Positions 3,571 to 20,299 of a stretch of DNA of 43,946 nucleotides are shown here, one piece after another. Made by a program: the position numbers and the translations under genes. This DNA comes from Gemmatimonadota bacterium (lineage in GTDB: Bacteria; Gemmatimonadota; Gemmatimonadetes; Gemmatimonadales; GWC2-71-9): the NCBI GenBank assembly GCA_020350425.1, contig CP070716.1, positions 1,463,679 to 1,507,624 on the forward strand. Reading direction: 5' to 3'. The notes under the pieces are model-generated. The model made no database searches, had not been told where the DNA came from, and was given only the letters and a program-made list of their open reading frames with translations. Positions within the stretch are counted from its first letter, which is position 1; each line of letters opens with the position of its first letter.

Positions 3571-4254
3571 ATGCGGATTCTCGTGGTCGAGGACGACCGG
3601 AAGGTCGCCGGGTTCATTGAAATGGGCCTCCGGGAGGAGGGCTACGCGGTCGACGTCGCCAAGGACGGCGAGGAAGCCACCGTCTTTGCGCACATCAACG
3701 ACTACGATGCCATCCTGCTGGACCTCATGCTGCCCAAAAAGAACGGGCTGCAGGTCGCTTCGGAGCTACGGCGGGAAGGGCGCAACACGCCCATCCTCAT
3801 GCTCACCGCCCGGGACGCGACGGAGGACGTGGTGCGCGGCCTCGACGCGGGCGCCGACGATTACCTCACCAAGCCGTTCAAGTTCGACGAGCTGCTGGCG
3901 CGACTCCGCGCGCTGGTGCGCCGCGGGGGAGCGGCGCGGCTCGACCGCCTCTCGTATGGCCCGCTCGAGCTCGACCGGTTGAAGCACAAGGCGTGGGCGG
4001 GTGAGGCCGAGCTCGACCTCACCCCGCGCGAGTTCCAGCTGCTCGAGCACTTCATGCTGCACCCCGAGGACGTGGTGCGCCGCACCGAGCTGCTGGAGAA
4101 GGTGTGGGACATGCACTTCGACCCCGAAAGCAACGTCGTGGACGTGCATGTCGGAAACCTGCGGCGGAAGCTCCGCGAGGCCGGGTATGACGGTTTCGTG
4201 CAGACCGTTCGGGGCGTCGGCTTCTGCCTGAAGCTGATCGATAACAAGCGCTGA
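3571..4254 (+). CDS. OmpR/PhoB-family response regulator
   Basis: DNA-binding response regulator of 227 residues. The receiver domain (1-120) has the acidic pocket Glu7/Asp8/Asp9, phospho-acceptor Asp51 in LLDLMLP, Thr79 and Lys101 (LTKPF). The C-terminal winged helix (about 125-222) shows the family pattern LTPREFQLLEHF and the final VRGVGFCL turn. Length and domain order are normal for the family. It lies between two histidine kinases: 59 bases after the GAF kinase and overlapping the membrane kinase by one base (TGATG), the usual layout for a cognate pair with the latter. Target genes are unknown; the direct repeats just upstream suggest it controls its own promoter. Confidence 0.93.
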   Translation: MRILVVEDDRKVAGFIEMGLREEGYAVDVAKDGEEATVFAHINDYDAILLDLMLPKKNGLQVASELRREGRNTPILMLTARDATEDVVRGLDAGADDYLTKPFKFDELLARLRALVRRGGAARLDRLSYGPLELDRLKHKAWAGEAELDLTPREFQLLEHFMLHPEDVVRRTELLEKVWDMHFDPESNVVDVHVGNLRRKLREAGYDGFVQTVRGVGFCLKLIDNKR

Positions 4255-5648
4255 TGTACTCCCTGCGCCGCACGCTCGCCGTGCGGTTCTCGGTCACTAT
4301 CTTCGTCGCCCTCCTCCTGATTGCCCTGTGGGCCTATCTGGGCACGCAGCGCATACTGCGAGAGGAACTGGACCGGGGGCTCGCTGCGTCGGCCTACATC
4401 GAGGCGGACGCGCTCGCGGCGGGCTACCCCATTGCCGAGCACTCCGAACCGACGCTCCTCAGCGATTTCATCCGGACGGTGAATCGCTTCGTGGTGGTGC
4501 GGGACCCGATGGGGGCCGTGGTCTCCGCCAACACCCCGCTTTCCGTTCGACTCCCCCTCGACTCGGCGAGCTTTGCACGGGCCTTCGCCGGCCAGCCGGT
4601 GTGGATCACCCAGCGGTGGGCCGACGCCGAGGTGCGGTGCTTCTACTGGGCGGCGCAGGTGAGGGACCACAGCCAGACGGTCGTCATCCAGGTCGGAGCA
4701 TCGCTCGTCCCCCTGTCCGACGCGAACCGCGAGGTGCTGTTCCTGCTCCTCGGCACGGTGTTGCTGGGGACGCTGGCAAGCTGGCTCGGAGCCGGTTGGC
4801 TCGCCGGCTCGAGCGTGGCGCCCGTGGAGGAGATCGCCGAGCAGGCGGGCCGCATTGGGCCTGGGCAGACCGGCCAACGAATCACCGAGCATGCGGATGC
4901 CGAGGAGTTCGCCGGCTTGATCTCCGTCCTGTACGGGATGCTGGAGCGGCTCGACCGGGCCTTCGAGACCCAACGTCGCATGATCGCCGACGCGGGCCAC
5001 GACCTGAAGACCCCGCTCACCGCCATGCGCGGCGAGCTCGAGGTCGCGCTGCGCGGCAAGCGGGACCCGGACGAGTACCGCGCGATCCTGGCCTCGGTGC
5101 TCGAAGAGGTGGACCATCTCGCCTCGCTGAGCAACTCGCTCGTGATGCTGGCCCGCCTCGACGCGGGCGCCCTGAGGCCCGAGCGCATCGAGCGCGACTT
5201 GGCGGCCCTGGCGGAGCGCGCAGCGGACAAGGCGAGGGGACGGTGTGGCGCCCGGGAGATCCGTTTCGGCCGCGCGGACGAGGATGCCACCGCTCCAGTG
5301 GACGCGCAGATGGTGAGCGTCACGCTGGACCATCTGCTCGACAACTGCATCAAGCACACTCCCGATGGAAGCAAGGTGTACGTGGGAGTGGCGGCGGACG
5401 GCTCGCTGGTCAAGGTGAAGATCGAGGACGACGGTCCGGGCATCGACGATGAGTCGCTGGAGAATCTGTTCGAGCGTTTCTATCGCACCGACGCGGCGCG
5501 CACCCGCGGCGGCGTGGCCGGCCTGGGCCTCACCATCGTCGCGGCGATCGTGGGGGCGCACGGGGGTATTGTCGAGGCCGAGCGGAGCACCCACGGAGGC
5601 CTCGCGATCACGATCGGGTTCCCCCGCACCGCGGCCACCACATCCTGA
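4254..5648 (+). CDS. Membrane sensor histidine kinase
   Basis: Kinase of 464 residues and the evident partner of the preceding regulator, with which it shares a TGATG junction. TM1 spans about 11-30, a periplasmic sensor region of about 125 residues follows, TM2 lies near 160-182, then HAMP (about 183-236). The H-box AGHDLKTPLTAMRGELE carries His249; the residue after His is Asp where Glu is usual, which is seen in part of the family. The ATPase domain has LLDNCIKHTP, DDGPGI and VAGLGLTI, and ends at about residue 458. The layout is like heavy-metal and cell-envelope kinases (CusS/BaeS type), but no specific ligand site can be named. Confidence 0.92.
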   Translation: MYSLRRTLAVRFSVTIFVALLLIALWAYLGTQRILREELDRGLAASAYIEADALAAGYPIAEHSEPTLLSDFIRTVNRFVVVRDPMGAVVSANTPLSVRLPLDSASFARAFAGQPVWITQRWADAEVRCFYWAAQVRDHSQTVVIQVGASLVPLSDANREVLFLLLGTVLLGTLASWLGAGWLAGSSVAPVEEIAEQAGRIGPGQTGQRITEHADAEEFAGLISVLYGMLERLDRAFETQRRMIADAGHDLKTPLTAMRGELEVALRGKRDPDEYRAILASVLEEVDHLASLSNSLVMLARLDAGALRPERIERDLAALAERAADKARGRCGAREIRFGRADEDATAPVDAQMVSVTLDHLLDNCIKHTPDGSKVYVGVAADGSLVKVKIEDDGPGIDDESLENLFERFYRTDAARTRGGVAGLGLTIVAAIVGAHGGIVEAERSTHGGLAITIGFPRTAATTS

Positions 5649-5759: not shown

Positions 5760-5981
5760 ATGCGCACCAACGTGGGGAAGGTGGATGCGGTGATTCGGGG
5801 GGGCCTCGCGGTGGCATGCCTCTGCGTCGCCGTGATCATGAATCGGGACACGGTCGTGTCATTGAGCGCCGCTCTCTGCGCGATCCTGTTCGCCGCGACG
5901 GCCCTGACACGGCACTGTCCGCTCTACGAACTGTTCGGCCGTAGGACACGCGCTCACCCATCGCATACCCAGCATCACTAG
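5760..5981 (+). CDS. Small DUF2892-type inner-membrane protein
   Basis: Protein of 73 residues. It begins MRTNVGKVDAVIRGGLA, has two hydrophobic segments (about 14-27 and 33-48) and the motif TRHCPLYELFG, all hallmarks of DUF2892 (YgaP-like membrane module), in which the CPLY cysteine is conserved. The His-rich tail (HPSHTQHH) is unusual and could bind metal. It follows the kinase gene after 111 bases on the same strand and may belong to the same regulon. Its function is unknown; relatives are often near sulfur-transfer or redox genes. Confidence 0.72.
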   Translation: MRTNVGKVDAVIRGGLAVACLCVAVIMNRDTVVSLSAALCAILFAATALTRHCPLYELFGRRTRAHPSHTQHH

Positions 5982-6092: not shown

Positions 6093-7307
6093 ATGATCCG
6101 GCCCTTCTGCAAGACCGTCGTCGGACTCCTCGTCGTGGCGGCTTGTCTCCTGTTTCGCGACGCCGATGCCCGACTGATCCCGGCATTCGCGCGAAAGTAC
6201 GGCGTCAGCTGCAGCCTGTGCCACACCGTGGTTCCCAAGCTCTCGGCGTACGGAGAGGTGTTTGCCGGGAACGGCTTTCGCATGGCGCCCGGCGGGCCGC
6301 CGCGGGATACCCTCGACACCGGCGACCGGATGTTGCAGCTCATGAAGAGCTTCCCCCTCGCGGCGCGGCTGGACGCGTACACGCAGGCCTACATCAACGG
6401 CGCCAACGAGAGCGATCTCCAGCTGCCCTACAACGTGAAGCTCCTCTCGGGCGGAGAGATCTCGAGCAGCCTGTCGTACTACTTCTACTTCTTCCTGTTC
6501 GAGCGGGGGGAGGTCGGAGGCATCGAGGACGCCTACGTCTATTGGAACGACATCGGCGGCATCCCCCTCGACGGGGCGGTCGGGCAGTTCCAGGTCTCCG
6601 ACCCGATGTTCAAGCGCGAGCTGCGCCTCTCGTATCAGGACTACGTCGTCTACCGGGCGCGGGTCGGCTATCAACCGGCCGATCTGACCTACGACCGAGG
6701 CGTGATGGCCATCGGCGACGTCGGACGGCTCACGCTCGCGGGTCAGATCGTCAACGGAAACGGGCGGGGCGAGGCCGAGCCGGACCGGCAGCTGGACAAC
6801 GACCCGCACAAGAACCTGTTCGGCCACGTCTCGGCCAGCATCGTGCCGCAGTTCCGGTTGGGGGCGATGGGTTACTACGGCAAGCAGAACGGCGCCGCCG
6901 ACGAGACGGCACCCGTCCTGACCAACACACTCTGGATGGCGGGCGCGGACGCCACCCTGTCGGTCGGGGCCGTCGAGCTCAACCTACAGTACCTCCACCG
7001 TGAGGACGACAATCCCACATTCGCGCCGAGCGAACCCAAGGCCATCACGAACGGCGGCTTTGCGGAGCTCATCGTGCATCCATCGGGGAAACGCTGGTAT
7101 GCCTTCGGACTCTACAACTTCGTGGACTGCAACCAGCCCCTCCTGAGCTTTCGCCTCGGCGGCCCGAGCGACGTGGATCGGTATCAGGCCATCGCGGCTG
7201 GCGCCGGCTACACGGTACGGCGTAACTTCAGGCTACTTTTCGAGGGCAACTGGGACATCGAGCTCGAGGCTACCCGGTGGACGCTCGGGCTCTCGACGGC
7301 GTTCTAG
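6093..7307 (+). CDS. Fused monoheme cytochrome c-porin (Cyc2-like outer-membrane protein)
   Basis: Exported protein of 404 residues. A signal peptide (about 1-26) is followed by one haem c site, CSLCH at 40-44, inside the pattern PAFARKYGV...CH...PKLSAYGEVFAGNGF. The remaining 330 or so residues alternate polar and hydrophobic positions as in a beta-barrel (for example SYYFYFFLFERG, EAYVYW-like strands, LSTAF end with terminal Phe). This fused haem-plus-porin layout and the FAR-x-YG-x-x-CxxCH-x4-P wording resemble Cyc2, the outer-membrane Fe(II) oxidase; related barrels exist in organisms not known to oxidise iron, so the substrate is inference. The ATG at 6093 has a good GGGGGAAGC site. Two small cytochrome genes follow, as expected for onward electron transfer. 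Confidence 0.7.
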   Translation: MIRPFCKTVVGLLVVAACLLFRDADARLIPAFARKYGVSCSLCHTVVPKLSAYGEVFAGNGFRMAPGGPPRDTLDTGDRMLQLMKSFPLAARLDAYTQAYINGANESDLQLPYNVKLLSGGEISSSLSYYFYFFLFERGEVGGIEDAYVYWNDIGGIPLDGAVGQFQVSDPMFKRELRLSYQDYVVYRARVGYQPADLTYDRGVMAIGDVGRLTLAGQIVNGNGRGEAEPDRQLDNDPHKNLFGHVSASIVPQFRLGAMGYYGKQNGAADETAPVLTNTLWMAGADATLSVGAVELNLQYLHREDDNPTFAPSEPKAITNGGFAELIVHPSGKRWYAFGLYNFVDCNQPLLSFRLGGPSDVDRYQAIAAGAGYTVRRNFRLLFEGNWDIELEATRWTLGLSTAF

Positions 7308-7324
7308 CATTCTCGGAGGCGTTC

Positions 7325-7705
7325 ATGCGGCAAACACTCGGTCGGTTGGCACTGACGGCCTGCGCACTTTTGCTGTGGAGCACCGCGGAAGCCCAGGAGA
7401 GGCCCGAAGCGGTGACTCCCGAGGCGGTTTCCCAGGGCGAGGGACTGTTCAAGGGCGCGGGGTTGTGCAGCGCCTGCCACGGCGCGAGCGCGAAGGGGAT
7501 CCCCAATTTGGGGGCGAACCTCACGGACGACGAGTGGCTGCACAGCGATGGCAGCTTCGACGGCATTCTCAAGTCGATCACCGAGGGTATCAGCGCCGAC
7601 AAGTCGTCGTCGGGAACCGTGATGCCGCCCAAGGGTGGAAGCGCGCTCTCCGACAGCCAACTGAAGGCCGTGGCGGCCTACGTCTGGAGCCTGAGCAACA
7701 AGTAG
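7325..7705 (+). CDS. Periplasmic monoheme cytochrome c (class I)
   Basis: Protein of 126 residues: signal peptide to about residue 23 (ending TAEAQ), then one c-type haem site CSACH near residue 51 and a distal Met in TVMPPKGG, the usual axial ligand of class I cytochromes. The C-terminal helix LKAVAAYVWSLSNK is typical. GGAGG at 7315-7319 precedes the ATG. It lies 17 bases after the cytochrome-porin gene, so the two are co-transcribed; the likely job is to shuttle electrons through the periplasm from that protein to an oxidase or to NosZ. Confidence 0.88.
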   Translation: MRQTLGRLALTACALLLWSTAEAQERPEAVTPEAVSQGEGLFKGAGLCSACHGASAKGIPNLGANLTDDEWLHSDGSFDGILKSITEGISADKSSSGTVMPPKGGSALSDSQLKAVAAYVWSLSNK

Positions 7706-7724
7706 CACCGGGCACCTGAGGAAC

Positions 7725-7760
7725 GGGGAGCGGTACGGAAACGTGCCGTTCCCCTTTCGT
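7725..7760 (+). terminator. GAAA-loop terminator after the cytochrome c gene
   Basis: Thirteen-pair stem (7725-7737 with 7742-7754, two G-T wobbles) closed by a GAAA tetraloop, followed by TTTCG. It probably ends the cytochrome-porin/cytochrome c transcript. Confidence 0.7.
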
Positions 7761-7900
7761 TCGCCTTCGCGGATGGCCCCCTTCACAAGCGACCACACAC
7801 TCGCGAAGTTTGTAGCCTGTCACGCGTGGCGCGGGCGGCGGCTGCCCGCGCCGAGTACGTCCGGTACCTGTCAACGATACAGCAGGAGCGAACGACACCG

Positions 7901-8326
7901 ATGCATATACGGATCAGTGCGATTCTGATGATGGCGACGCTGGCCTTCGCGTGCGGCGGCGGCGAGGGTGCGCCGTCCGAGGAGGCAGCGGCGGAGAGCA
8001 TGCCCGCGATGGAAGCTGCGCCGATTCAGGCCCCCACGGGCGAAATCGATGCGGCCCTGGTGAGCGCGGGTGAGACCGCCTTCCAACAGAAGGGCTGTGT
8101 GGGTTGCCACACGGTGGGCGGCGGCAGGCTCACCGGCCCCGACCTGCAGGGTGTGACCGATCGCCGCAGCTACGAGTGGTTCATGGCCATAGTGCTCAAG
8201 CCCGACTCCATGCTGCAGAACGACGCGACTGCCAAGCAGCTCCTCGCCGAGTACATGACCCCGATGGTGTATATGGGGACGACGGAGCAGGAGGCGCGGG
8301 CGATCTACGAGTACCTGCGTCAGTAG
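7901..8326 (+). CDS. Cytochrome c, probable lipoprotein, upstream of nos genes
   Basis: Protein of 141 residues. The N-terminal hydrophobic segment ends in LAFACGGG, a plausible although imperfect lipobox, so the protein may be tethered to a membrane by Cys18. A linker rich in Glu, Ala and Pro (about 22-50) precedes a class I cytochrome domain with the haem site CVGCH and a Met-rich distal region (MTPMVYMG). Small c-type cytochromes of this type commonly sit beside clade II nosZ and are thought to donate electrons to it. The chosen ATG at 7901 places the signal sequence correctly. The gene ends just before a long hairpin shared with the convergent regulator gene. Confidence 0.85.
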   Translation: MHIRISAILMMATLAFACGGGEGAPSEEAAAESMPAMEAAPIQAPTGEIDAALVSAGETAFQQKGCVGCHTVGGGRLTGPDLQGVTDRRSYEWFMAIVLKPDSMLQNDATAKQLLAEYMTPMVYMGTTEQEARAIYEYLRQ

Positions 8327-8386: not shown

Positions 8387-8830
8387 TCACCAGCGGCAGT
8401 CGGCCTGGGATCGGCCTTCGCGCCGGTCGTCGCTGAGCACGTCCCCGACCGTCGTCTCCTCGAAGAACCTCGAGATCGCTTCGGACGCGTTCTGCCAGCG
8501 GCGGTGCACCGGACAGGGGTCGCTACTGTCGCACTCCGGCCGTCCCATCAGGCAACGGCGCTCGGCCCCCACCCCGATGGTGTCGAACGACGACACGACC
8601 CGTAGCAACGTGAGCTCCTCCGGGGGCGTGGCCAGCCTGAATCCACCGTTCTTGCCCCTGGCAGACTCGAGGATCCCGGCCCGCACCAGGTCATGCAGGA
8701 TCTTCCCCAGGTAGTTTCGGGGCACACCGATCGACTCAGCCAGATCGCTCGCACGCACCGACTGGTCATCGGGCTGGCGCGCCAGCCAGACCACGGCCCG
8801 GAGCGCGTACTCAGCGGTCCCGGAGAGCAC
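8387..8830 (-). CDS. Rrf2-family transcriptional regulator with Fe-S cysteines (NsrR/IscR-like)
   Basis: Regulator of 147 residues. The winged-helix domain starts SGTAEYALRAVVWLA and includes the recognition segment IGVPRNYLGKIL and wing GKNGGFRLA, all typical of Rrf2 proteins. Cys93, Cys100 and Cys106 (C-x6-C-x5-C) match the cluster-binding spacing of NsrR, IscR and RirA closely, so it probably senses NO, O2 or iron through an Fe-S cluster. I chose GTG 8828-8830 because GGGAGG lies five bases upstream and the family N-terminus begins there; a longer start would add a Pro-rich stub. It is divergent from nosZ and is the obvious candidate to control it. Which signal it senses cannot be decided from sequence. 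Confidence 0.87.
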   Translation of the reverse strand: MLSGTAEYALRAVVWLARQPDDQSVRASDLAESIGVPRNYLGKILHDLVRAGILESARGKNGGFRLATPPEELTLLRVVSSFDTIGVGAERRCLMGRPECDSSDPCPVHRRWQNASEAISRFFEETTVGDVLSDDRREGRSQADCRW

Positions 8831-9032
8831 GGATGCCTCCCTGGGGCTGGGGGGTTGCGGACACACGGGCTCGGCGTAAATTCACGATAACTTCATGTTA
8901 ATATCTTATTATACCCGAGGCAAGCAGCGAGCACCCCGGCGCCTGACGCGCGGGCCGACAGAACCGCCGGCCGTGGCGAATTGCCGTAACTCACTTTACT
9001 AGAGCAACTTAGCAACATCGAGGAGAAGCGAC
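8831..9032. promoter_or_regulatory. Divergent control region of rrf2 and nosZ
   Basis: The part at 8877-8914 is strikingly AT-rich against a GC-rich background and holds a minus-strand TATAAT (8913-8908) pointing at the regulator gene. The nosZ side has a good ribosome site (AGGAGAAG, 9021-9028). No clear -35 could be assigned to either promoter. Confidence 0.55.
8886..8905. promoter_or_regulatory. Candidate operator for the Rrf2 regulator
   Basis: Twenty-base interrupted palindrome GATA-N4-CATG-N4-TATC, partly symmetrical (12 of 20 positions), just downstream of the regulator's putative -10. A dimeric repressor bound here could control both directions. The assignment rests on symmetry and position only. 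Confidence 0.4.
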
Positions 9033-10994
9033 ATGCGATCCAAACGTTACCTCTGGCCGTTCGCGCTCGCCACCGCCGCGGTGGCGGTCGCCGTGGCAGG
9101 ACTCGGATCCTGCGCCGGACCGGGTGGTTCGGCCGACATCGGCTCGGTGGCGCGCGAGCGCGGCCTCACCGACGCCGACGTGCTGGCGGCGGTGAAAACC
9201 TACCAGCCCACCGGCCGGTTCGACGAGTACATCATGTTCTCCTCGGGCGGCCACTCGGGACAAGTCCTCGTGATCGGGATTCCTTCCATGCGGCTCCTCA
9301 AGGTGATCGCCGCGTTCACGCCCGAACCGTGGCAGGGCTTCGGGTACGGCGCCGAGGAGCACAAGGAGCTGCTGGCAAGCGCCCGCATGGCGGGGCACGA
9401 CCTGGCGTGGGGCGACACCCATCACCCGGCCCTGTCCGAAACCGACGGCGACTACGACGGCGGCTTCCTGTTCATCAACGACAAGGCGAACCCACGCATC
9501 GGCGTGATCGATCTGCGCGACTTCGAGACGAAGCAGATCGTGACGAACCCCAACATGGGCACCAACCATGGTGGGGCCTTCGTCACCCCGAACACCGAAT
9601 ACGTGATCGAGGCGGCACAGTACTCGATTCCCCTGTGGACGGACTACGCCGACACCGATCGCTACGAGCAGGATTACCGCGGCCTGGTGACGCTGTGGAA
9701 GTTCGACCGCGCCAGCGGCCGCCTCGACGAGTCCGCCAGCTTCTCGATGGAGCTGCCGCCGTACTGGCATGACCTGTCGGACGCCGGCAAGGGCCCCTCG
9801 GCCGGATGGGCGTTCCTGAATTCGTTCAATGCCGAGATGGCCACCGGTGGCGTGGAGGATGGCAACCCGCCGTTCGAGAGCGGGGCCTCCGCCAACGACA
9901 TGGATTACATGCACATCATCAACTGGGAGCGGGCTGCGGAGATCGCGGCGCAGCGCGGCAAGACCCGCACCCGCAACGGCCAGCGCATCATCCCGATGAG
10001 CGTGGCGGTGGAGGAGGGCATCCTGTTCCTGGTGCCCGAGCCGAAGAGCCCGCATGGTGCCGACGTCACGCCCGATGGCCGGTTCATCGTGGTGTCGGGG
10101 AAGCTGGACCCTCACGTGACGATCTACTCGTGGGAGAAGATCCAGCAGGCCATCAACAACCGCGATTTCGCCGAGACCGACCCCTACGGCATTCCGATTC
10201 TCGACTTCGCCTCGGTCATCGACGGCCAGCTCGAAGTGGGGCTGGGACCGCTCCACACGCAATTTGACAACGCGGGGTGCGCGTACACGTCGATCTTCCT
10301 CGAAACCAAGGTGACGAAGTGGTGTCTCGAGCCGCTCGCCGTGGCCGACGATATCGGCGTCCACTACAACGTGGGTCACCTGGCAACCGCGGAGGGAGAC
10401 ACCAAGTCGCCCGATGGCAAGTACCTGGTGGCAATGAACAAGTGGTCGCTCGACCGGTTCAACCCGGTGGGGCCGCTTCTCCCGCAGAACTTCCAGCTCA
10501 TCGACATCTCGGGCGACGAGATGCAGCTGCTGTACGACATGCCGATCGGCGTTGGAGAGCCGCACTACGCCCAGATCATCAAGGCCGACAAGCTGGAACC
10601 GTTCAAGGTGTATCCGCAAGTGGGGTACGCGCCTCACACCATGGCAGCCTCGCCCAACGCGGTGCTGGGCGGCCAAGAGAGCGTCCAGCGGCGCGGCAAC
10701 CAGGTCACCGTCAACATGACTGCCATTCGCAGCCACTTCACTCCCGAGTACATCCGGGTGCGAGAGGGTGACCGGGTGCGCATCAACATCACCAGCATCG
10801 AGCAGGCGCACGATGCCACCCACGGCTTCGGTATTGCGAAGTACAACATCAATTTGAGCCTGGAACCGGGTGAGTCACAGACGGTGGAGTTTGTCGCGGA
10901 CACGCCGGGCGTCTTCCCGTTCTACTGCACTGAGTTCTGCTCAGCGCTCCACCTCGAGATGATGGGCTACCTCTTGGTCGAGCCTCGGTCGTAG
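9033..10994 (+). CDS. nosZ: Nitrous oxide reductase, clade II (Sec-exported)
   Basis: Periplasmic copper enzyme of 653 residues reducing N2O to N2. The N-terminus has a plain hydrophobic signal and no twin arginine, the mark of clade II enzymes; LGSC at 24-27 is also a possible lipobox, which would anchor the enzyme. The beta-propeller domain shows the His-rich CuZ signatures (GDTHHP, and TNHGGAF), and the C-terminal cupredoxin domain has the complete CuA set: AHDATHGFGI and Cys632, Cys636, His640 and Met643 in FYCTEFCSALHLEMMGY. Length is normal. It leads a five-gene nos operon and is preceded by cytochrome genes that could supply electrons. No nosL or nosR is visible in this window. Confidence 0.97.
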   Translation: MRSKRYLWPFALATAAVAVAVAGLGSCAGPGGSADIGSVARERGLTDADVLAAVKTYQPTGRFDEYIMFSSGGHSGQVLVIGIPSMRLLKVIAAFTPEPWQGFGYGAEEHKELLASARMAGHDLAWGDTHHPALSETDGDYDGGFLFINDKANPRIGVIDLRDFETKQIVTNPNMGTNHGGAFVTPNTEYVIEAAQYSIPLWTDYADTDRYEQDYRGLVTLWKFDRASGRLDESASFSMELPPYWHDLSDAGKGPSAGWAFLNSFNAEMATGGVEDGNPPFESGASANDMDYMHIINWERAAEIAAQRGKTRTRNGQRIIPMSVAVEEGILFLVPEPKSPHGADVTPDGRFIVVSGKLDPHVTIYSWEKIQQAINNRDFAETDPYGIPILDFASVIDGQLEVGLGPLHTQFDNAGCAYTSIFLETKVTKWCLEPLAVADDIGVHYNVGHLATAEGDTKSPDGKYLVAMNKWSLDRFNPVGPLLPQNFQLIDISGDEMQLLYDMPIGVGEPHYAQIIKADKLEPFKVYPQVGYAPHTMAASPNAVLGGQESVQRRGNQVTVNMTAIRSHFTPEYIRVREGDRVRINITSIEQAHDATHGFGIAKYNINLSLEPGESQTVEFVADTPGVFPFYCTEFCSALHLEMMGYLLVEPRS

Positions 10995-11068: not shown

Positions 11069-11674
11069 ATGGATCAGATCACATCCTTCTTTCAGGGCAG
11101 TCTTTCGCAGCGCAGCCGCGTGCTGATGGTCGTCGCCACGCTGATCCTGTTGCCGTGCATCTTCTTGCCCACGTGGACCATCACGCTGCACGCGCCGCAG
11201 TACCCGGACGGCCTCCAGATGCAGATCTACCCACACACGGTGGGGGGGGACGTTCACGAGGTGAACATCCTGAACCACTACATCGGGATGGAGGAGATCG
11301 AAGCGGATGAGTTTCCCGAGTTCCGCTTCATTCCGTTCTTCATCCTGCGGTTCTTCCTGTTCGCGCTCCTCACCGCACTCGTCGGGTGGGTGGCCATCGC
11401 GGCCATCGGATGGATCGACTTCGTGGTGTTCGGCGCGGTGATGCTCTACACGCTGAGACACTGGCTGTGGGAGTACGGCAACAACCTCGCTCCCGACGCA
11501 CCGCTTTCCATCGCTCCGTTCACGCCGAGCTTCATTGGCGGCACCCAGGTCGGGCAGTTCACGGTGTCGAGTTGGCCGGCGGCCGGTGCCGTGTTGATGG
11601 CGATCGCGGGGGCCATTGGGCCCCTCATCGTGCTGTACGAATGGCATCGCCGACGGAGCGGTCAGTCGAAGTGA
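11069..11674 (+). CDS. nosB: NosB-like membrane protein of the clade II nos cluster
   Basis: Membrane protein of 201 residues with four or so hydrophobic segments (about 20-37, 88-108, 111-130, 172-192) and a periplasmic region after TM1 holding His-rich stretches (IYPHTVGGDVHEVNILNHYI). A gene of this size and topology between nosZ and nosD is characteristic of clade II nos clusters, where it is called nosB; its biochemical role is not established, and suggestions include a part in electron supply or copper-site maturation. The ATG at 11069 has GGAGAG six to eight bases upstream. Its stop overlaps the nosD start (GTGA). The name is assigned from position and topology. Confidence 0.72.
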   Translation: MDQITSFFQGSLSQRSRVLMVVATLILLPCIFLPTWTITLHAPQYPDGLQMQIYPHTVGGDVHEVNILNHYIGMEEIEADEFPEFRFIPFFILRFFLFALLTALVGWVAIAAIGWIDFVVFGAVMLYTLRHWLWEYGNNLAPDAPLSIAPFTPSFIGGTQVGQFTVSSWPAAGAVLMAIAGAIGPLIVLYEWHRRRSGQSK

Positions 11675-13017
11675 AACGCCTGGGCGTGCTGTTGCTCTCC
11701 GTCCAGGCTGCTCAACTCACGGTGGGCCCTGGAGGGACGTACGCCTCGATTCAGGCGGCCCTCGACGCGGCGCGCCCCGGAGACACCGTGCGCGTGGCGG
11801 CTGGTGTGTATCACGAGCACCCTGTGATCGACCGCCCCGTCGTGCTCCTCGGAGCCCCGGGCGCCGTCATCGACGGTGACGGCCGCGGCGTCGTACTCAC
11901 GGTGAATGCCGCCGCCACGACCGTGCGGGGCTTCATTATTCGCGGCAGCGGCGCCAACCAGTCGCGCGAGCACGCCGGCATCCTGGTGACCGACGCCGAC
12001 GGTGTCATCATCGCGGACAACCGGCTCGAGGACGTCCTCTTCGGCATCTATCTGAAGGAGAGCGACCACGCCGTCGTCGAAGCCAACGAGATCGTGGGCA
12101 AGAACCTGGCCATGCCGCTACGGGGCGACGGCATCCGATTGTGGTACAGCCACGAGGGTCGCCTCAACGACAACCGTGTCATTCGCAGCCGGGACGTGGT
12201 GATCTGGTTCTGCAACGGCACCGAGGTGCGCGACAATCTCGTGCGCGACAGCCGCTACGGCCTACACTACATGTACAGCGACCACAACCGGTTTGAGGGA
12301 AACCGCTTCATCGCGAACCACGTGGGCGCTTTCATCATGTATTCGAGCGACATCACGTTCCGGGACAATCTCTTCGCCGACGCGCGGGGCACGACCGGCC
12401 GCGGCCTCGGGTTCAAGGACGCCGACGGTATCACGGCGATCGGCAATGTGTTGGTGAAGAATGCCGTCGGGATCTCCATCGACAACTCCCCTACCAGCGT
12501 CGACGTGGTGAACGAGTTCCGAGACAATGTGATCGCCTACAACGACGTCGGTGTATGGATGCTCCCGTCGGTGCACGACAACCACTTCGTCGGAAACCAG
12601 TTCATCGACAACGTCCAGCCGGTAGGCATTTCGGGCGGCGGGACCGCGCTGGCCAACGTGTGGCGCGACAACTACTGGAGCGAGTACGCCGGATTCGACG
12701 AGCGCCGCGACGGTCACGGAGATACGCCCTTCGTGTTCGAGCGGCTGTCCGACGATCTGCTCGCCAAACATGAGCCCCTCCTCCTGTTCAACCTGAGCTT
12801 GGCAGCCAGCACGCTGAACACCCTGAGTCGCGTCTTCCCACTGCTCCAGCCCCAGCCCATCGTGGTGGATTCGCTGCCCCGCATTGTCCCAACGCTCTCC
12901 ACGGAGGTCGGAGCGCGGCACGGGTCGCCCCTGGCCGCGGCCGGCTTCCTCGCCGCGGCACTCGTCGCAGCCGCCTCCGTGCCGCGGCTGCGTCGGCTCG
13001 GGAGGGGCAAGTCGTGA
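11671..13017 (+). CDS. nosD: NosD, periplasmic beta-helix maturation protein
   Basis: Protein of 448 residues: signal peptide (VKRLGVLLLSVQAAQ), then a right-handed beta-helix of about 20-residue coils typical of NosD/CASH domains (repeated D-N-x-h-x-x-N units such as ADNRLEDVLFGIYL, DNLVRDSRYGLHYMYS, HYMYSDHNRFEGNRF). NosD works with NosF and NosY to assemble the CuZ sulfide-copper centre of NosZ. A C-terminal hydrophobic helix (about 417-433) followed by basic residues could anchor it in the inner membrane. It starts at GTG 11671, overlapping nosB by four bases, and its stop overlaps nosF likewise (GTGA). Confidence 0.92.
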   Translation: MKRLGVLLLSVQAAQLTVGPGGTYASIQAALDAARPGDTVRVAAGVYHEHPVIDRPVVLLGAPGAVIDGDGRGVVLTVNAAATTVRGFIIRGSGANQSREHAGILVTDADGVIIADNRLEDVLFGIYLKESDHAVVEANEIVGKNLAMPLRGDGIRLWYSHEGRLNDNRVIRSRDVVIWFCNGTEVRDNLVRDSRYGLHYMYSDHNRFEGNRFIANHVGAFIMYSSDITFRDNLFADARGTTGRGLGFKDADGITAIGNVLVKNAVGISIDNSPTSVDVVNEFRDNVIAYNDVGVWMLPSVHDNHFVGNQFIDNVQPVGISGGGTALANVWRDNYWSEYAGFDERRDGHGDTPFVFERLSDDLLAKHEPLLLFNLSLAASTLNTLSRVFPLLQPQPIVVDSLPRIVPTLSTEVGARHGSPLAAAGFLAAALVAAASVPRLRRLGRGKS

Positions 13018-13922
13018 TTCGGGTCGGCGGGCTCACCAAGCGATTCGGGATGCACCTGATCCTCGACCGGCTCGACCTCTCTGTGACAAAGGGCGAGCGG
13101 GTGGCGCTCTTGGGCCTCAACGGCGCCGGCAAGACGACCCTGATGCGCTGCTTGTTGGGCCTCATCCCGTTCGACGGCAGCCTGAGCATCGCCGGCCAGG
13201 ATGTCCGGGCCAACGGCCGCGAGGCGCGAGCTCGCCTCGGGTACGTGCCGCAGCGCGCGCCGCACTTCGACGGCAGCTTCGCCGAAATGATCGAGTTCTT
13301 CACACGGTTGCGCGGCGTCGAGCCGGCCGCCGTGGAATCCCGCCTCGAGAGCCTGGGGCTGGCACCCGCGGAGCACGGCGAGAAGCCGGTGCGGGCGCTC
13401 TCGGGCGGCATGCTGCAGAAGGTGCTGCTGGCGCTGGCGCTGGGCGCCGATGTGCCGCTGCTCCTGCTCGACGAGCCCACCGCCAACCTCGACCCCCGCG
13501 CGCGGCGCGAATTCTTGCGCGCCCTGCAGAGCGTGGACCACGACACTACCATTCTGCTCGCCTCACATCGCTTTGCCGACGTGCAGGCGGTGGCTGACCG
13601 GCTCTTGGTGTTGCACGGCGGGCGCATCGCGTTCGACGGCAGCGTGGCCACGCTGCGGGATCGCGTGGGCGACGCGGTAACGCTGTGGGTGAAGGTGCCC
13701 ACCGACGTGCGGGAGCGGGCACGACAGCATCTCGAGTCGCTGGCACTGCCCGCGGTTCTCTCGAACGGCTCGGCCATCGGCGTACGGGTGGACCACGCGG
13801 CGCGCGCCGACGTGCTGGTCGAGCTGCGGCAGCGAGCCATCCCCGTCGAGGACTTCTGGACCGAAGTCCCGTCGCTGCAGGACCTGCTGGAGAACGTGCT
13901 GGGGCTGGGAGAGCGGTCGTGA
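13014..13922 (+). CDS. nosF: NosF, ABC transporter ATPase for NosZ maturation
   Basis: ATPase of 302 residues. Walker A is GLNGAGKTT, the Q-loop is in GYVPQ, the signature is LSGGM, Walker B is LLLLDEPTANLDP and the H-switch is LASHR. The order is canonical, and the extra C-terminal 90 residues are usual for NosF. It energises the NosFY transporter which, with NosD, supplies sulfur for the CuZ site. It starts with GTG inside the GTGA overlap with nosD, with GGAGGGG at 13001-13007 as ribosome site, and ends in a TGATG overlap with nosY. Confidence 0.94.
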   Translation: MIRVGGLTKRFGMHLILDRLDLSVTKGERVALLGLNGAGKTTLMRCLLGLIPFDGSLSIAGQDVRANGREARARLGYVPQRAPHFDGSFAEMIEFFTRLRGVEPAAVESRLESLGLAPAEHGEKPVRALSGGMLQKVLLALALGADVPLLLLDEPTANLDPRARREFLRALQSVDHDTTILLASHRFADVQAVADRLLVLHGGRIAFDGSVATLRDRVGDAVTLWVKVPTDVRERARQHLESLALPAVLSNGSAIGVRVDHAARADVLVELRQRAIPVEDFWTEVPSLQDLLENVLGLGERS

Positions 13923-14737
13923 TGAGCCGAACCATGCTGTTCGTGCAGCGGGAGCTGGCTGGCTCTCTGCGGGCTCGCTGGTTCCTCGCCTATTCCGCCG
14001 TCTTCCTGGCGGGCGGACTGCTTCTCGCCACCTTCGGGATGGGCGACATCACGGTGTACGGCTTTCGCGGCTTCGCCAAGGCCTTCACGGGGCTGGTGCA
14101 CCTGGCGCTGCTGTTCGTGCCGCTGATGGCCCTGTTCCCGGCTGCGGCCGCCATCGCGGAGGATCGAGAGAGCGGCGCGCTGGAGTATGTGCTGGCCCAG
14201 CCCGTGACGTTCGGGGAGGTCTACGCCGGGAAGCTGGGCGGCGTGAGCCTCGCCGTATTGCTCTCTATGACGTTGGGCTTCGGGGCCGCCGGCGCCGTCG
14301 CCGTGCTGCGTGGGGTGCCACCTGGCCTCGTCGCCATCCTCTACGCATTCGTGGTGCTGCTGGCCCTCGTATTCGTGGCGCTGGGGCTCTGCTTCTCCAC
14401 CATTGCCGGCTCCAGAGCACGCGCTGTGACCTTCGGTATTCTGGTGTGGCTCGTACTGGTGGCGCTCGGCACGCTCGGCGTCATGGTCGCGTTCGTGCGC
14501 TGGGGACTGCCGGAGCAACTCCTCGTGACCTGGAGCTTCCTCAATCCGGTGGAGGCCTTTCGCATGGGCGTAGTGAGTGCGCTCGACGCGGACCTGTCAC
14601 TCTTGGGACCGGTCGGTGCCAGGGTCGCGGCGCGCTTCGGCGCAGCGGGCACGGCGACGTTGTCCGGCCTCTCTCTGGCCGCGTGGGTCGCGTTGCCGGG
14701 TCTCATCGGCTGGAGGCTGTTTCGCGCACACGGGTAA
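13922..14737 (+). CDS. nosY: NosY, ABC-2 type permease for NosZ maturation
   Basis: Integral membrane protein of 271 residues with six hydrophobic segments and the ABC-2 permease features: an amphipathic start (MLFVQRELAGSLRARWFL), the loop FPAAAAIAEDRESGALEYVLAQPV between TM2 and TM3, and a final helix ending WRLFRAHG. It is the membrane partner of NosF. The ATG at 13922 overlaps the nosF stop by one base; a GTG three bases earlier is also possible. The last nos-specific gene here; no nosL copper chaperone follows. Confidence 0.9.
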   Translation: MSRTMLFVQRELAGSLRARWFLAYSAVFLAGGLLLATFGMGDITVYGFRGFAKAFTGLVHLALLFVPLMALFPAAAAIAEDRESGALEYVLAQPVTFGEVYAGKLGGVSLAVLLSMTLGFGAAGAVAVLRGVPPGLVAILYAFVVLLALVFVALGLCFSTIAGSRARAVTFGILVWLVLVALGTLGVMVAFVRWGLPEQLLVTWSFLNPVEAFRMGVVSALDADLSLLGPVGARVAARFGAAGTATLSGLSLAAWVALPGLIGWRLFRAHG

Positions 14738-16456: not shown

Positions 16457-17053
16457 TCAATCCCGCGTCGGCCGCCTGGGCACGAAGCGCGGCACCCGCC
16501 GGCAGTACTCCGTGTACTCCTTGCCGAAACGATCCCGCAGCTCGCGCTCCTCCAGGAGCACGATCAGATACAGGGTGGGAAACGTGAGCACCAACAGGAC
16601 GTAGAGCCCCAGGTAGTTGGCGAAGCAGGCATACGACGCCACCCAGCAGAAGAACTCGATGTAGCGCGGGTGGCGCACCTTGCCGTAGATCCCCTCAGTG
16701 AGCAAGGTGCCGCGGTTGCTCGCCTCGCGGCGCAGCTCGGGGATGCCCGTCAGGATCTTCTGGGTCAAGTGTCTCCGGCGCTTGCGCGCGATCACCGCCC
16801 CCGCGGAGAAGCACGCCGCCGCCAGGGCTAGCAGCGGGATGCTGGTACCCAGATCGGCGCCCAGCAGCGTATCGCGAGCGAGGTACAGCCCCGCCATCAT
16901 CGCGATCACGGGAACGCTCAGGATGGCGTACGTCCACCCCGGACCGAACCGGCGCCAGAAGCCGACGAACGGATGGATGACGAACCACAGCAAGACGCTT
17001 GGCGGCACGGACACCAGCAGCACGACCGCAACGACGTAGCGGGCCGTGTTCAC
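16457..17053 (-). CDS. Isoprenylcysteine methyltransferase-like membrane protein, coupled to feoB
   Basis: Membrane protein of 198 residues with about five hydrophobic segments. The C-terminal half has the ICMT/PEMT signature: [13 protein letters not shown] (the R-H-P-x-Y motif) and the end [23 protein letters not shown], which form the SAM-binding part in this family. Bacterial members methylate lipids or small isoprenoid substrates; the substrate here is unknown. GTG 17051-17053 is the start, giving a GTGA overlap with feoB. Close coupling suggests joint expression with iron uptake, but no mechanistic link is known. Confidence 0.82.
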
Positions 17054-19284
17054 TGCAGGAGCCGCCACAGCTGGGCCACCACGAAGCACACGGAGAAGCC
17101 CATGAGCAGGGGGAGCAGGCTCGCGACCGATGTCCAGCGCACACTCCGCGTCTCCCGGTAGATCGTGTAGATGGTCGTCGAGCACGGATTGTGCAGCAGG
17201 CTGAACAGCATGAGGTTGATGCCCGTCAGCAGCGTCCAGCCGCCCGCTTGCAGCAGATCGCCGGTCGCCGACGCGCTCTCGAGCTCGAACATCACGCCCG
17301 CACCCTCGCCCGCACCCCCGCCGCCCAACGTGAGCACGGTCAGCATGAGCACCGTCGGGATGATGATCTCATTGGCCGGGATGGCCACCACGTACGCCAG
17401 CAGGATCACGCCGTTCAAGCCGATCAGGATGCCGAAGGGGTCGAGCCACGACACGAAGTGCTCGGCGAGGCTCGCGTTGCCCACCCCGACGTTCGACACC
17501 AGCCAGATCACGGCGCCGGCGGGTGCCGCGAAGACTACCGCGCGCCACAGCACGATCAGGGTACGGTCGATGAGCGACGTGTACAGCGTTTGCAGCACGC
17601 GCGGCGGCCGATAGGGAGGAAGCTCCAGGCTGAAGCTCGTGGCCTCGCCCTGAAGCACGGTGCGCGTCAGGAGCCAGGACGCGAAGAACATCACCACGAT
17701 CCCCAGCACGGCGATCCCCACCACGGCCGCGGCCGAGGCGAGTCCCGCCAGGTGCGCCGGAACCAGCGCACCGATGAAGATCGTGGCAATGAGGATCTGG
17801 GTGGGCCAGCGCCCGTTGCAGAGCGAGAAGTTGTTGGTGATGATCGCGATCAGCCGCTCCCGCGGGCTGTCGATCACGCGTGTGGACACCACACCGGCGG
17901 CATTGCAGCCGAAGCCCATGCACATGGTGAGCGCCTGCTTGCCGTGCGCACCCGCTCGACGAAACAGGCCGTCGAGATTGAACGCCACGCGCGGGAGATA
18001 GCCGAAGTCCTCCAGCAGCGTGAACAGCGGAAAGAAGATCGCCATGGGCGGGAGCATCACGCTGACCACCCACGCGGTGGCGAGGTACACCCCGTCGAGC
18101 AGGAAGCCGCTGAGCCACCACGGCACTCCGATGCCGGCGGCGAAGCCCTTGAGCACCGGGTGGACGGTGTCCAGTAGCAGCGACGCCAGGAGGGCCGAGG
18201 GATAATTGGCCCCGGCGATGGTGATCCAGAAAACGACCGTGAGCACCAGGAGCATGAGCGGGAAGCCGAGCCACTTGCTGGTCAGCAAACGGTCGAGGGT
18301 GCGATCGAAGTCGAACTTCGCGCGCCGCACGCCGGTAACGCCGCTCGCCTCCGCGATCCGTCGCGCCTCGGCATAGGCCGCCTCGGTGAGCCGGTCGTGG
18401 AAGTTGGGGCTCAGCGTCCAGCGCAGCTGGGACGCCCGCTCGAGGATCTCCTCGGCGGGCCGTGAGGCCGCAGCGCCCCGTGCGCCGTGCGCTACCTCGA
18501 CGAGCCGACCGTCGGCCACGCTACCGAGGTCGCCGGCGCGCACTGCGGCCTCCACGCGCGCATCGGCGTTGAGCAGCCGCAGCGCGACCCACCGCGCGTT
18601 GGGCAGGTCGGGATAGACGCGCCGCACCGTTTGGGCCAGATCCCCGACGCTCGAGGCGACCTCGGGCGGCAGGTCCCGAACCCGGAACGGCGCGGTCTCG
18701 GTCTCCCCCGTTGCCACGTCGTGGATCTTTTCGAGGAGTTGGGGGATCCCCTCCCCCTGCCGCGCCGCCGTCGGAACGACCGGGACACCCAGTTCACGGG
18801 AGAGCTTGGGCGGGTCGATCGCGATCCCGTGGCGCCGGGCCTCGTCCATCAGGTTGAGGCAGACGACCACGCGATCGGTGATTTCGAGGATCTGCAGCAC
18901 GAGGTTCAGGTTGCGCTCGAGCCGCGTGGCGTCGACCACCACGACCGTCACGTCGGGCCGGCCGAACAGGATGAAGTCGCGCGCAACCTCCTCGTCGGCG
19001 CTGCCGGCCTGGAGCGAGTAGGTACCGGGCAGGTCCACGACCTTGACCCGGCTGTCCCGCAGTGCGAACACCCCCTCCGCGCGCGCCACGGTCTTGCCGG
19101 GCCAGTTGCCGGTGTGCTGCCGCAGGCCCGTGAGCTGGTTGAACACGGTGCTCTTGCCCGTGTTGGGATTCCCCGCCAGCGCCACCAGACAATCCCACTT
19201 GTCCGGCTTGAGACCCAGTTGGACAAGGCTCGCCTGGCGGTCCGGGGCGGGGCGGCGGCGTCCGGGCGCGGTGAGGGTCACCAT
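17050..19284 (-). CDS. feoB: Ferrous iron transporter FeoB
   Basis: Fe(II) transporter of 744 residues. The N-terminal G domain shows G1 GNPNTGKS (38-45), G2 Thr in GNWPGKT, G3 DLPG (84-87) and G4 NLMD (144-147). A GDI-like helical region follows, then the membrane part with two Gate repeats, including GFGCNAAG and the Cys-containing SLCNGRWP, and the C-terminal segment [17 protein letters not shown]. Length is normal for FeoB. The ATG is one base after the stop of the upstream DtxR-FeoA gene, so the two are translated together. It imports Fe2+ under low oxygen, in keeping with the denitrification genes nearby. Confidence 0.97.
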
Positions 19285-19285
19285 G

Positions 19286-20299
19286 TCAGGCCCTGGTCAC
19301 CCGAATCCAGCCGGCCTGCTCCCGTCGCAACGCAATGAGCGCGCCGCGAATGCGATACGCCACCGGGTCGCGCATCGCTCCCTCCAGCTCGGCGGTGATC
19401 ACCGTTCCGGGCACCACACCGAGGTCGAGCAGGCGGCGGCGCTGCGGCCCTTGGCAGACCGGGGAAATCTCCAGCACCTCCGCTTCCTCACCGGGGCGCA
19501 ACGACGAGAGCGACTCGAAGGGGCCGCGCTCGTCCTCCAGCAGCGGTGCCGCCACGGTGACGTTGCGCGCCGCGACCGGCTCGAGTGTGAACTCCTGCCC
19601 GTCGGCGGTGAACCGGATGGCGTGCGGACCGGCCGACACGATCTCGACCTGGGTGCGCGGGGCGAGGCCGAGCCGCAGGAGCTGCTCGAAGATCTCGCGG
19701 GGCTCGTCCTCCAGGTGGACGACCGACGCCCGCTGCCCGGGCCGCAGATCCGTGAGCGCGAAACCCTTGCGCGGGGGCAACTCTCCGTCGGCCGTCGGAA
19801 TCGGATCGCCATGCGGGTCGTACCGCGGGTCGCCCATCGCCGCGGCGAGCTGCTCCACCTGATCGCCGCTGAGCGTGTGCTCCCGGGTCTCGGCCTCGTC
19901 GTGCCAGTCGGCCGGCAGCACCCCTGTGCGATCGGCGAGGTAGCGCTCCCACAGACGGTGGGTGCGGAGCACGCGAAGCGCCTGGCTGCGCCCCACCCCG
20001 GAGAGGGTGAGTGTCTCACCCTCGGAGCGGGCCAGGCCCAGGCCCTCGAGCCGCGCCACGAGCTGCGCCGCGCGCGCGCGCGACATCCCCAGCGCACCAG
20101 CCACGCTCTCCATGGTGGCCGGCTTGCCCGCGTACTCGGACTCGTGCAGGTGCTTCAGGGCGTCCTCGACCCGAGCCCGCTCGGTGAGCCTCACCAGCCG
20201 TCCGAGGCGCGCGACGATTCCCCGGCGCGGCCAAAAGGCCACCACCGTCAGCCCGAGGATGACGGCGAAGACCAACAGTGCGAGCGCAGGATCGACCAT
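19286..20299 (-). CDS. Membrane-anchored DtxR-type regulator fused to two FeoA domains
   Basis: Protein of 337 residues joining iron sensing and iron uptake. Residues 5-23 form a transmembrane helix. A DtxR winged helix (about 40-105) contains the recognition helix [19 protein letters not shown]. The dimerisation and metal domain (110-168) keeps His114, Glu118, His133, Glu140 and His141, matching DtxR His79, Glu83, His98, Glu105 and His106, while the position of DtxR Cys102 is Glu137, as in MntR. Two FeoA/SH3 domains follow (about 180-253 and 262-336; [10 protein letters not shown] and [12 protein letters not shown]). It begins the feo operon and its own promoter carries a DtxR-sized inverted repeat. 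Probably it represses feo when metal is plentiful and assists FeoB. Confidence 0.88.

Follow-up and report, generated by a model that had tools for sequence, protein, structure and literature searches.

A 43,946-nucleotide stretch of a Gemmatimonadota genome, analysed here as a whole and called the window, holds a gene for a haem-bearing membrane barrel, two small c-type cytochrome genes and, behind them, a nitrous-oxide reductase cluster. The original prediction took the barrel for a Cyc2-like cytochrome-porin and proposed that the cluster could link iron oxidation outside the cell to N2O reduction. The locus raises two questions: whether the barrel protein belongs to the Cyc2 family, and whether it works with the reductase beside it. 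Clade II N2O reducers, which include Gemmatimonadota (PMC9530729), are N2O sinks, and their electron donors are poorly known; were a direct route to hold, a porin with one haem would supply N2O respiration with extracellular electrons.

Gene content of the locus

The fused barrel with one CxxCH haem, originally placed at 6093-8326, is a real gene with a predicted 16-strand barrel, and it covers 6093-7307 only. A single fused protein across the whole range was rejected: the range holds three separate genes, the other two being the mono-haem cytochromes that had also been predicted. The features are as follows, in window coordinates:

3571-4254, plus strand: OmpR-type response regulator, upstream of the barrel gene
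4254-5648, plus strand: histidine kinase, upstream of the barrel gene
6093-7307, plus strand: Cyc2-type fused cytochrome-porin, 404 aa (from motif, homology, AlphaFold2/Foldseek and orthologs)
7325-7705, plus strand: CytA, mono-haem c-type cytochrome (Cytochrome_CBB3/Cytochrom_C); the ORF opens at 7277, with ATG 7325 the likely start
7725-7754, plus strand: terminator-like hairpin after CytA (13-pair stem, 4-base loop, T-rich tail)
7901-8326, plus strand: CytB, mono-haem c-type cytochrome; the ORF opens at 7826, with ATG 7901 the likely start
8387-8866, minus strand: Rrf2-family regulator, between CytB and nosZ (TIGR00738, 115.5 bits, cut-off 73.3)
9033-10994, plus strand: NosZ, clade II (Sec-dependent) nitrous-oxide reductase (TIGR04246, 846 bits, cut-off 625)
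11069-11674, plus strand: membrane protein of 201 aa downstream of nosZ, conserved in the nos clusters of the class
11647-13017 (start approximate), plus strand: NosD-like gene, named from position and conservation
13014-13922, plus strand: NosF-like ATPase, named likewise
about 13919-14737, plus strand: NosY-like permease, named likewise

The barrel protein is laid out as an N-terminal hydrophobic segment (a helix at residues 4-20, in both the AlphaFold2 model and the sequence), a mono-haem domain with the motif CSLCH and the 16-strand barrel. The likely start of CytA lies 17 bp past the barrel stop codon. The barrel, CytA and CytB genes are the only three CxxCH genes in the window, a fourth match being a 52-codon chance frame. 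The predicted order of cytochromes followed by nos genes stands, with a NosZ of clade II; what had been missed is the Rrf2 regulator on the opposite strand between them. With this gene and the hairpin in between, it is improbable that the barrel gene and nosZ share an operon. The hairpin is itself only suggestive of a terminator, the two terminator-like sites of the region being no excess over a shuffled mean of 1.7.

Several other features of the surroundings were noted. The best NCBIfam matches of the two-component system at 3571-5648 are of the heavy-metal cztR/cztS type and fall below cut-off. A short ORF at 5760-5981, coding for about 73 aa and membrane-like, lies between kinase and porin. 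Searches of Pfam and NCBIfam with the 201-aa membrane protein gave zero matches. FeoB and a fused iron-repressor/FeoA protein are encoded at 17050-20299; in the related genome G001, FeoB directly follows CytB, at the place taken in the window by the nos cluster and further genes.

The barrel protein is a Cyc2-family cytochrome-porin

The published Cyc2 consensus is PXFAR[Q/K][T/Y]..CXXCH..PXL, and Keffer et al. recognise a Cyc2-like protein by this motif with its CXXCH and PXL, a minimum length of 365 aa, BLASTP similarity at 1e-5 or better and a porin of 16 strands (PMC8406198). The haem domain of the window protein reads PAFARKY-GVS-CSLCH-TVV-PKL, and the wording first reported for it (FARKYG, CxxCH, PKL, G-x-x-F) is exact. 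Its LIPAFARKY agrees with the PXFAR[QK][TY] part of the screen of Keffer et al. (2021), while the first A of the AXPXFAR motif is L in the window protein and A in many orthologs. The single CXXCH is followed four residues downstream by the PXL (CSLCH-TVV-PKL), and the length of 404 aa exceeds the minimum of 365 aa. Pfam and NCBIfam contain no family for the barrel protein, a profile search of PDB sequences returned nothing significant, and no relatives were found in the viral contigs searched.

To assess homology to the Cyc2 of known Fe(II) oxidisers, a DNA pattern describing the haem domain of cluster 1 was run against public genomes; it retrieved loci from Zetaproteobacteria (Mariprofundus), Gallionellaceae (Gallionella), Chlorobium sp. 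N1, Ferriphaselus, Ferrigenium and the like. A cluster-1 Cyc2 HMM built from 69 proteins of these loci matches all 41 ortholog rows scored, the window protein with 34 bits over the haem domain and first strands. The same region of the orthologs aligns with cluster-1 Cyc2 in hhalign with a probability of 99 (E 4.7e-18), and BLASTP of the window protein against cluster 1 gives a best E value of 4.7e-10 in a small local database, below the 1e-5 threshold of Keffer et al. The window protein and cluster-1 Cyc2 share few identical residues (about 29% across some 125 positions).

The fold agrees. An AlphaFold2 model of the window protein, of moderate confidence (mean pLDDT 63.6), begins with a helical haem domain and continues with 16 strands, and Foldseek groups it with 16-strand porins (E 3.6e-11). 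This model and that of a cluster-1 protein from Mariprofundus sp. KV agree in the number of strands (16), in a long break that separates strand 5 from strand 6, and in the best PDB match, 6ehe; the two were built on overlapping alignments and are not fully independent. Taken together, the motif, the profile homology, the fold and the partner cytochrome described below bear out the proposed identity: the protein is a genuine Cyc2-family cytochrome-porin. Judged from its sequence, it probably resides in the outer membrane and lets electrons in. The Cyc2 tree also contains Burkholderia, Ralstonia and Xanthomonas (PMC8406198), and membership alone is therefore no proof of iron oxidation.

The conserved partner of the porin is CytA

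Of the 394 genomes sampled from the class, 46 (about 12%) carry an ortholog of the porin. A mono-haem cytochrome lies directly downstream at 20 of 39 ortholog loci, compared with 9 of 606 background genes (p = 1e-20); at about half of the loci no cytochrome directly follows. The original prediction had named a missing conserved neighbourhood with nosZ beforehand as one of two points that would tell against it, and this is what the survey returned: across 42 ortholog loci of other genomes, none has nosZ within the retrieved stretch, which at 29 of them extends 5 kb or more to either side. The other point, a position outside Cyc2 combined with the lack of a predicted barrel, applies in neither part when the superfamily is taken as a whole. 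A NosZ match at the G001 locus proved to be a match to the cupredoxin domain only.

The closest relatives, with assemblies 67-93% complete, display reciprocal losses. G001 and G007 have the order regulator-kinase-porin-CytA-CytB, and no nosZ was found in either genome, a result that is firmer for G007 (93% complete) than for G001 (84%). G002, of the same genus, has regulator-kinase-CytA-CytB-Rrf2-nosZ; the porin is absent, leaving 428 bp from kinase to CytA. In G024 a 45-aa porin relic sits at the porin's place, with CytA-CytB-nosZ intact. CytB also stays upstream of nosZ in several genomes where the porin is elsewhere or absent. The regulator-kinase pair is retained with the barrel in G001, G007 and G399, and without an intact barrel in G002 and G024. 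We conclude that CytA belongs with the porin and CytB with nosZ, as two separable modules; the conserved partner of the porin is the next cytochrome rather than nosZ, and a nosZ cluster conserved with the porin is rejected. In a further genome, G021 (one contig), two partial porin copies lie 2.2 Mb apart, the C-terminal one at C1:919915 and the N-terminal one at C1:3124995.

Direction of electron flow

Our preferred reading, to which we give a probability of about 60%, is that of an electron-entry porin of the Cyc2 type whose electrons join a cytochrome pool shared in the periplasm, with Fe(II) the presumed donor and CytA, CytB and NosZ the presumed recipients. A small reductant from outside, for which dissolved Fe(II) is the most plausible candidate, would enter the 16-strand barrel and reduce the one haem where the barrel opens to the periplasm; CytA would take up the electron and hand it on to the shared pool, where several terminal enzymes could draw on it, the outlets being NosZ through CytB and the haem-copper oxidases. 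FeoB and the FeoA/iron-repressor protein in the window count in favour of electron entry, and so do the multihaem clusters beside two orthologs and their homologues in the window's own genome, described next; the upstream two-component system, heavy-metal-like (below cut-off) and not iron-specific, counts against it.

Electrons could also run the other way, the porin acting as an exit protein or auxiliary conduit that works with multihaem (Mtr/Dms-like) systems to reduce an extracellular acceptor. Orthologs in G019 and G012 adjoin clusters of 8-18-haem genes, several with MtrC/MtrF-like domains, and the G019 cluster includes a molybdopterin oxidoreductase; homologues of these multihaem genes, together with a 507-aa protein, are present in the window's own genome (G000) at about 2.384-2.404 Mb. 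However, such neighbours occur at only 2 to 4 of some 42 ortholog loci, those family members that have been characterised are Fe(II) oxidisers (PMC8406198, PMC7029218), and a lone haem at the periplasmic mouth would be ill-suited to solid acceptors, so that we regard electron exit as unlikely. The multihaem region of G000 forms a large island (2.383-2.420 Mb) of proteins with 9 to 21 CxxCH, also with NrfD-like and cytochrome-b-like parts, a sigma-54 two-component system and GcvH-like proteins; its pair of a 12-haem and the 507-aa protein recurs in G019 and G012. A candidate conduit porin beside an octahaem gene in G110 turned out to be citrate synthase.

Coupling to nitrous-oxide reduction

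A more specific proposal, close to the original one, is that porin, CytA and CytB once formed, and still form here, one chain that drives the clade II NosZ directly, with Fe(II) or another extracellular donor oxidised and N2O as the acceptor. The gene order in the window fits it, and an ancestral order could be assembled from G001 and G007 (porin-CytA-CytB) and from G002 and G024 (CytA-CytB-nosZ). Porin and nosZ also share genomes more often than expected: at class level in 32 of 46 genomes with the porin versus 97 of 348 without (odds ratio 5.9), at family level in 17/24 versus 26/78 (odds ratio 4.9, p 0.0018) and at genus level in 11/13 versus 11/28 (p 0.0086), all figures uncorrected for kinship. 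Because kinship is not removed, this co-occurrence is only suggestive of a functional link. Against dedicated coupling stand the 42 other ortholog loci, all without nosZ in their surroundings, the relatives that keep one module without the other in both directions, and the opposite-strand regulator and hairpin that split the units in the window itself. We consider such a chain quite unlikely. The adjacency to nosZ, real here but not conserved, reflects the local gene order of this lineage; the data therefore do not support a dedicated iron-to-N2O pathway, though one could exist. A single striking gene neighbourhood is no evidence of a pathway; a well-defined Cyc2-type clade enriched in nosZ-bearing genomes is nonetheless a candidate, amenable to testing, for the supply of electrons by lithotrophy or from outside the cell.

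Iron-based autotrophy through the Calvin cycle is not indicated, because RuBisCO had no match in G000 and weak matches only in relatives. The G000 assembly, a single 2.87-Mb contig with an estimated completeness of 75%, gave no RpoB or 16S match, and absences from it are therefore weak evidence.

The porin could instead sense redox state or handle metals (copper, zinc or iron) as part of a metal-responsive regulon, without a respiratory role. The heavy-metal-type kinase and regulator upstream (below cut-off) and the ZIP-type transporters nearby in the window, G001, G007 and G021 might point that way, but we consider it very unlikely, since metal-type neighbours occur in only a few near relatives and elsewhere only the cytochrome partner is conserved. 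A metal link through the RND efflux genes beside four orthologs was dropped, the two that were tested matching heavy-metal and multidrug models below cut-off.

Comparison with known systems

Electron transfer through an outer-membrane barrel is also proposed for MtrCAB, MtoAB and PioAB. These have a separate decahaem protein inside a 26-strand barrel (PMC8406198), whereas the window protein has one haem fused to a 16-strand barrel; with a single CxxCH and 16 strands it does not belong among the MtrAB/MtoAB conduits.

Among Cyc2 proteins, the original assignment holds for homology to the superfamily and for the predicted barrel, and the window protein falls outside the cluster-1 clade. In a tree of 85 rows, whose reference groups are cluster 1 and the Acidithiobacillus/Burkholderia type, the orthologs form a single clade (SH-aLRT 97) outside both a closed cluster 1 (SH-aLRT 99) and the well-supported Acidithiobacillus/Burkholderia-type group. 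Closest to the clade among the other rows are a Nitrospinota protein (34% identity over 373 aa) and L244, a non-cluster-1 Mariprofundus protein that carries FARKYG and matches the window protein with E 4e-14; a hunt for more Cyc2 types among genomes of Zetaproteobacteria yielded, apart from L244, mainly short ORFs.

Cluster-1 Cyc2 (Mariprofundus, Gallionellaceae, Chlorobium; PMC7029218, PMC8406198) resembles the window protein in its hydrophobic N-terminus, haem motif, PXL, single haem and 16-strand barrel with the long break between strands 5 and 6. It differs in wording (RQTG...CHFQHFP, against RKYG...CHTVVPKL in the window) and in clade, and the detectable similarity is limited to the haem domain and first strands. 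The Cyc2-like proteins of Acidithiobacillus/Acidiphilium plasmids and of Burkholderiales, probably cluster 2, likewise have the haem fused to the barrel, and a c-type cytochrome comes next in 4 of the 5 loci read; annotated Cyc2-like genes are followed by one in Caballeronia, Acidithiobacillus, Ideonella and Methylocystis. Their haem domains are of the Q-T-G...CH..FP.LTP type, and they form a well-supported clade different from that of the window orthologs.

Cyc2 homologues have already been reported in Gemmatimonadota, in a study that placed about 75% of its homologues in cluster III (PMC9769843). A genome in the window's order encodes a Cyc2-like protein that shares 77% identity with that of a named Gemmatimonadetes MAG. 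For cluster 3 (Leptospirillum Cyt572, some Zetaproteobacteria, Tenderia), the published consensus permits K-Y, the wording found in the window, and cluster 3 is for this reason a plausible home of the ortholog clade.
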